Part shown: positions 4,143-4,799 of the stretch, in pieces
Layout of the letters: every line of letters begins with the position of its first letter
How positions within the stretch are numbered: the stretch's first letter is position 1
Origin: Desulfomonile tiedjei DSM 6799
Lineage (GTDB): Bacteria; Desulfobacterota; Desulfomonilia; Desulfomonilales; Desulfomonilaceae
Direction of reading: 5' to 3'
DNA length: 64,000 nucleotides
NCBI RefSeq assembly: GCF_000266945.1
Contig: NC_018025.1
Span: 2,108,001 to 2,172,000, forward strand
Notes under the pieces: generated by a model
Databases searched by the model: none
Seen by the model: only the letters and a program-made list of their open reading frames with translations
What the model was told of the DNA's origin: nothing
Translations under genes and position numbers: made by a program

Positions 4143-4799
4143 CTAATGGAGCGATCTCATTCTCTTGAGAAAGGCCACAATCTCCTGAGGATCAGGTCGT
4201 ATGGTGTAGTCGGGATCCACTTCTACGCTTCGGATAATCGACATTTCATCGATGATGAAGCTCCCGGGCATGGGGAGTGTCCACGAATCATCGCCGTTGT
4301 ATTTTTTCAGATCCGTCCCGAACTGCAAATAGAGTTCGCGCAGATCGTCCGGAAGCGTAAAGACTAATCCGAATTCCCGAGCGAGCTTGTTGCCGCGATC
4401 GCTCAGTATTTCGTAAGATAATCTGTGTTTACCGACCATTTCTCGGTTATATTCGGGAAGTTGGGGAGATATGGCTATCAGTGTGCCACCTGCTGACGTA
4501 ATTTCCGGTAAAGCCTGTTGCAGAGCTGACAGCTCTGCGTTGCAGTACGGTCACCACACGCCACGGTAAAAGGCTACAACAAGAGGTCCTTTCCGGAGCA
4601 GATCCGTTGACCGGACGATCTCATCTCGGGTGTTGGGAAGAGCAAACTCGGGCGCCTTGGCCCCGACCTTCAGCACATGTTCGAGAATACCTGAACTTCG
4701 AAGGTCTTCAGTAGCGCGATGCATAATGTTGATTGCCTCGGGCGCTGCTTTCGCTTCGAAATGGCTTTTGATGGAATTGAGTCTATCTTGAAGATTCAT
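4143..4799 (-). CDS. Selenocysteine peroxiredoxin-like protein (AhpC/TSA fold)
   Basis: Thioredoxin-fold peroxidase or thiol oxidoreductase of the peroxiredoxin-like family, 218 residues when the in-frame UGA at 4553-4551 is read as selenocysteine (residue 83). The reading frame continues without a break after the UGA into PYCNAELSALQQALPEI. This gives RGVW-Sec-PYC, where cysteine homologues have RGxWCPYC; Sec83 is therefore the predicted peroxidatic residue and Cys86 the resolving one. KAPEFALPN before it and PGSFIIDE after it are normal for the fold. A near-perfect hairpin with a GUC loop lies 12 bases after the UGA. Without recoding, the product would stop right at the active site. The reducing partner is not encoded nearby. 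Confidence 0.85.
4520..4538 (-). other. SECIS-like hairpin of the peroxiredoxin gene
   Basis: On the mRNA strand GCAGAGCU pairs perfectly with AGCUCUGC around a GUC loop, beginning 12 bases after the UGA and putting the loop about 20 bases after it. A short stem with G/U at the start of the apical loop, at this distance, is what bacterial SelB recognises. Confidence 0.7.

Follow-up and report, generated by a model that had tools for sequence, protein, structure and literature searches.

A probable Prx-like UxxC selenoprotein encoded through an in-frame UGA in Desulfomonile tiedjei

Introduction

The Sargasso Sea survey (PMC1088965) described a Prx-like selenoprotein with a UxxC motif where Sec-peroxiredoxins have TxxU. 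Geobacter, Syntrophus and Desulfotalea were also counted among the bacteria that encode this Prx-like UxxC selenoprotein (PMC1794560), the GOS survey lists 225 Sec sequences of it under the name Prx-like 1 (PMC2398784), and it was recorded again in 2026 (PMC13188914). Here we analysed a minus-strand gene within a 64,000-nucleotide stretch of the Desulfomonile tiedjei DSM 6799 genome (hereafter the window). Among the papers searched, none named Desulfomonile and 'selenoprotein' together.

The window's protein shares with the Prx-like UxxC family (PF00578; thiol:disulfide oxidoreductase) the AhpC/TSA domain, the UxxC motif and the exchange between Sec and Cys, together with a SECIS element directly downstream and a frequent occurrence in Deltaproteobacteria (PMC1088965, PMC1794560, PMC2398784, PMC13188914). 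Compared by domain and motif, it has both the PF00578 match and the UxxC by which the Prx-like family is defined (PMC13188914, PMC2398784), and placed on this basis it fits the published 'Prx-like UxxC' selenoprotein kind. An earlier note on this DNA had considered the UxxC form worth recording; it holds as a selenoprotein but not as something newly recorded, given that the family was named in surveys of 2005, 2006, 2008 and 2026.

Other described groups have some of these features. The Sec-peroxiredoxins (TxxU) resemble the window's protein in their peroxiredoxin-like fold and active-site Sec; however, TxxU puts Sec in the peroxidatic column, where the window's protein has Cys86. The corresponding PrxU model (NF040737) was rejected, scoring 24.7 bits against a cut-off of 270. 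SelL and SelL-related proteins likewise have a Prx-like fold and a redox motif derived from CxxC, but the motif of SelL is UxxU, whereas that of the window's protein is UxxC. The model for the SelL-related redox protein (NF040769) matched weakly, with 40 bits where its cut-off is 120, and was also discarded. No NCBIfam model reaches its cut-off for the window's protein.

Results

The gene, for which the earlier note had named no strand, extends on the minus strand from an ATG at 4799 to a TAG at 4145–4143 and encodes 218 residues with TGA translated as Sec. In this translation it forms one uninterrupted frame, the sole odd codon of which is the UGA at codon 83 (4553–4551), surrounded by the sequence VAFYRGVW-U-PYCNAEL. 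The list of table-11 ORFs contains the gene exactly as two half-genes, 4799–4551 and 4439–4143, in agreement with the description in the earlier note of two half-genes in one frame split by a UGA. The features of the locus are as follows.

4143–4799, minus strand: complete coding sequence of the putative Prx-like selenoprotein with Sec83 (translation with TGA as U; full-length homologues with TGA or Cys in column 83)
4668–4799, minus strand: N-terminal helical extension, residues 1–44, conserved among family members and not covered by the Pfam AhpC-TSA match, which begins at residue 45
4227–4667, minus strand: AhpC-TSA domain (PF00578), residues 45–191 (E=1.4e-26, 93.3 bits against a cut-off of 26)
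4551–4553, minus strand: UGA codon of Sec83 in RGVW-U-PYC (TGA in 38 and TGC/TGT in 11 family rows)
4542–4544, minus strand: codon of Cys86, the second residue of UxxC, invariant across the family
4520–4538, minus strand: SECIS hairpin with a perfect 8-bp stem GCAGAGCU/AGCUCUGC and a 3-nt loop GUC (folding, recoding test and SECIS model)

Homologues were collected from relatives of the host genome, from named genome contigs and from 395 genomes of the phylum. The resulting family rows come from the window's phylum, Myxococcota, Pseudomonadota, Bacteroidota, Planctomycetota and others. The codon in column 83 is TGA in 38 of the 49 protein rows and TGC or TGT in the other 11 (window's copy counted), and thus the UGA/Cys column is retained in all 49. 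The comparison with cysteine homologues proposed in the earlier note therefore placed the UGA, as claimed there, at the column of the active-site redox cysteine. In the survey of the phylum, the protein is present in 29 of 395 genomes with TGA in nearly all matches, and the sole full-length match without TGA carries TGT in column 83. A 25-row alignment, all members of which match PF00578, revealed that R79, G80, W82, C/U83, P84 and C86 are invariant. Columns 83 and 86 are the only invariant Cys/Sec columns of the family, and Sec83 and Cys86 are also all the Cys or Sec present in the window's protein. Mapping the Sec/Cys label on the maximum-likelihood tree needs six changes (4–7 in bootstraps), suggesting that several Sec/Cys exchanges likely occurred in the family, only one of which is forced by strongly supported branches. 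The window's copy does not fall among those of its own family; it joins, weakly, copies found in other families (support 81/82 and 87/79).

Upstream of the gene in the window lie genes of a major-facilitator transporter and a sodium:solute symporter, and the other strand carries PAS-domain and aconitase genes. In an all-against-all comparison of ORFs in flanks of 1.5–4 kb, synteny was lineage-specific only, and apart from chance relatives such as parts of ABC transporters no gene was found repeatedly beside homologues of different lineages. The gene neighbourhood thus points to no partner.

The AlphaFold2 model, computed with 25 homologues, has a mean pLDDT of 95.6 and a pTM of 0.92, and predicts a peroxiredoxin fold in which residue 83 just precedes a helix spanning residues 84–102. 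Among solved structures, AhpE and BCP-type peroxiredoxins (BCP/PrxQ) are the nearest, with a Z score of about 23 and an rmsd of 1.5–1.9 over about 152 residues. These matches cover residues 41–216 of the model, leaving outside the N-terminal 40 residues, where two helices (3–17 and 20–35) are predicted with pLDDT >90. Despite this likeness to AhpE and BCP/PrxQ, the window's protein is without PxxxT/SxxC and has a UxxC with no other thiol. ResA-type oxidoreductases are also present in the Foldseek list. The CxxC of ResA/TlpA aligns column for column with UxxC; however, the predicted fold of the window's protein is nearer to peroxiredoxins overall and has in addition the N-terminal helical extension.

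The earlier note had assigned Sec to the peroxidatic position, an assignment that the alignments do not bear out. In a profile alignment to the solved peroxiredoxins 2ywn, 2cx3 and 5epf, residue 83 corresponds to the Thr/Ser of PxxxT/SxxC, and Cys86 to the peroxidatic Cys. Three AhpC/TSA paralogues of the same genome agree with this placement, their ADTSGC, DWSPVC and AWTPVC aligning with VWUPYC. The canonical PxxxT/SxxC signature is absent from the window's protein, its Pro being replaced by Arg79 and its Thr/Ser by Sec83, and both columns are invariant in the aligned family. In the alignment to ResA, both cysteines of CxxC match U83 and C86. Given this match and the position of Cys86 in the peroxidatic column, the centre is, as judged from the alignments, a thioredoxin-type UxxC on a peroxiredoxin fold. 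Moreover, a resolving thiol, if it belongs to the same chain, can only be Cys86, since the protein has no Cys or Sec besides residues 83 and 86. Alternatively, the protein might be a true peroxiredoxin with a peroxidatic Sec and Cys86 as the resolving residue. Its fold is indeed nearest to the AhpE/BCP peroxiredoxins, and Sec83 could have peroxidase activity, given how well Sec serves as a nucleophile towards peroxides. However, the replaced signature residues and the location of Cys86 in the peroxidatic column speak against it, as does the fact that known Sec-peroxiredoxins are TxxU and not UxxC (PMC1088965); on balance we consider a true peroxiredoxin unlikely.

The hairpin GCAGAGCU-GUC-AGCUCUGC at 4538–4520 begins 12 nt past the UGA, with a UGA-to-loop distance of 20 nt, confirming the strong hairpin with a GUC loop that the earlier note had pointed out. 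Folded in context it has a z of −2.19, and the energy of the upper hairpin is −11.7 kcal/mol. Against synonymous recodings of the same peptide, the hairpin is significant in the window's gene (p=0.007) and at p<0.05 in most TGA homologues, whereas the Cys homologues gave no signal, save one weak hit of −3.3 kcal/mol (L048b). According to the published model, a bacterial SECIS has a loop of 3–9 nt with a G in its first two positions, an upper stem of 4–16 bp, a distance of 16–37 nt from the UGA, and an MFE of −7.5 or lower. The window's hairpin agrees with all four terms (GUC loop, 8 bp, 20 nt, −11.7 kcal/mol). The same model is passed by 40 of 40 TGA copies versus 1 of 11 Cys copies, for which Fisher's test gives p of about 9e-10 on rows that are related to each other. 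A search against Rfam gave no match in the window at gathering thresholds and, around the gene, no relevant one at E values up to 10.

Among nine homologues of one register, 92% of the stem cells are paired, compared with 29%–48% when the partner is slid; covariation of the stem in these nine copies is weak, with a two-sided change in one pair only. In the relatives from the window's own family (L014–L020), the hairpin has a GUCAU-type loop and lies about 4 nt further from the UGA. The stem is thus, by this comparison, not one homologous structure throughout, and the SECIS element appears to be kept in kind rather than in exact register. The different register of L014–L020, along with their separate position in the tree, suggests either a transfer or an old duplication.

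The host genome encodes the complete selenium machinery, as the earlier note had advised confirming: selA (599 bits), selB (404 bits), a tRNA-Sec with the anticodon UCA (69.5 bits), and selD, which is above cut-off (L011, G000:C1:3873142-3874065). Close to its start, selD also contains an in-frame TGA (SSG-U-ASKIGP), and thus probably encodes a selenoprotein too. None of the observations that the earlier note had named as refuting its reading holds, among them a genome devoid of sel genes and homologues devoid of Cys at this column. In the window, UGA is the stop codon of 14 of the 28 large ORFs, and a global reassignment of UGA was rejected because half of these ORFs end in TGA. The recoding signals, the Sec/Cys column and the machinery are all read directly from the DNA. 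The conserved TGA/Cys column, the SECIS element, the sel genes and the use of UGA as a stop elsewhere together indicate that the gene very probably encodes a genuine selenoprotein, in which UGA is read as Sec to yield an oxidoreductase with a UxxC centre and a peroxiredoxin-like fold.

A second selB (291 bits) is located directly downstream of a tRNA-Sec-shaped tRNA with the anticodon GCA (G000:C1:3562734-3564838; L085:9735-11875), the tRNA itself occupying G000:C1:3562734-3562821. This is the same arrangement as the selC*/selB* described for Syntrophobacterales and Desulfobacterales (PMC7609411). Its presence lends some weight to a reading of UGA83 as cysteine by a selC*-type tRNA-Cys and SelB*, as has been proposed for some Desulfobacterales. 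However, the GCA anticodon of the selC*-like tRNA does not pair with UGA, which led us to reject this pair as the decoder of UGA83, and the canonical UCA tRNA-Sec, selA and selD are present; decoding as cysteine is thus highly improbable. As a separate observation, the minus strand beside this pair (L085:12141-14307) encodes a protein resembling the D-component of 2-hydroxyglutaryl-CoA dehydratase (PF06050) with a C-terminal CSTCRCS, as well as a BadF/BadG-type ATPase (PF01869).

A pseudogene or sequencing error, with the UGA being a newly arisen nonsense mutation or a UGG/UGC read wrongly, would account for the two fragments that a standard annotation would give, but it is refuted by the recurrence of TGA in independent genomes, in the same column of 37 other family rows about 33%–54% identical to the window's protein, and is further opposed by the family-wide conservation and similar third-position GC of both halves and by the presence of a SECIS hairpin and complete Sec machinery, leaving it next to no credence.

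Discussion

The reading of the gene as a selenoprotein enables us to propose a putative model for its expression and catalysis. With the hairpin 12 nt downstream as the directing signal, SelB and Sec-tRNA-Sec(UCA) would decode the UGA at 4553–4551 as Sec. The product would be a thiol/selenol oxidoreductase of 218 residues, with a peroxiredoxin-like fold and a thioredoxin-type UxxC centre. By analogy with thioredoxin-fold chemistry, we infer a catalytic cycle in which Sec83 most likely attacks a hydroperoxide or a disulfide. Afterwards, Cys86 would resolve Sec83 as an internal Se–S bond, which a thioredoxin-type reductant would finally reopen. The position of Sec83, of the thioredoxin type as the alignments show, alters the chemistry to be expected of the protein.

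Compared with the Prx-like UxxC family, the N-terminal two-helix extension and the RGxWUPYC motif of the window's protein may mark a subfamily. We tentatively raise the idea, which we regard as rather doubtful, that RGxWUPYC proteins with this extension constitute their own subfamily of Prx-fold selenoproteins, for which no model has yet been built, acting on a dedicated substrate that other Prx-like selenoproteins do not share. Within the window's phylum its members would mostly have Sec, and in other groups either Sec or Cys.

Automatic annotation would either split this gene or label it a pseudogene, an error that the analysis puts right, and the family set of 38 rows with Sec and 11 with Cys, taken together with their SECIS elements, suffices to build a model of the NCBIfam type. 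In addition, a genome of the window's family contains a second copy (L118, G006:C12:27377-28015), which has WUVFC instead of WUPYC, along with a TGA and a hairpin.
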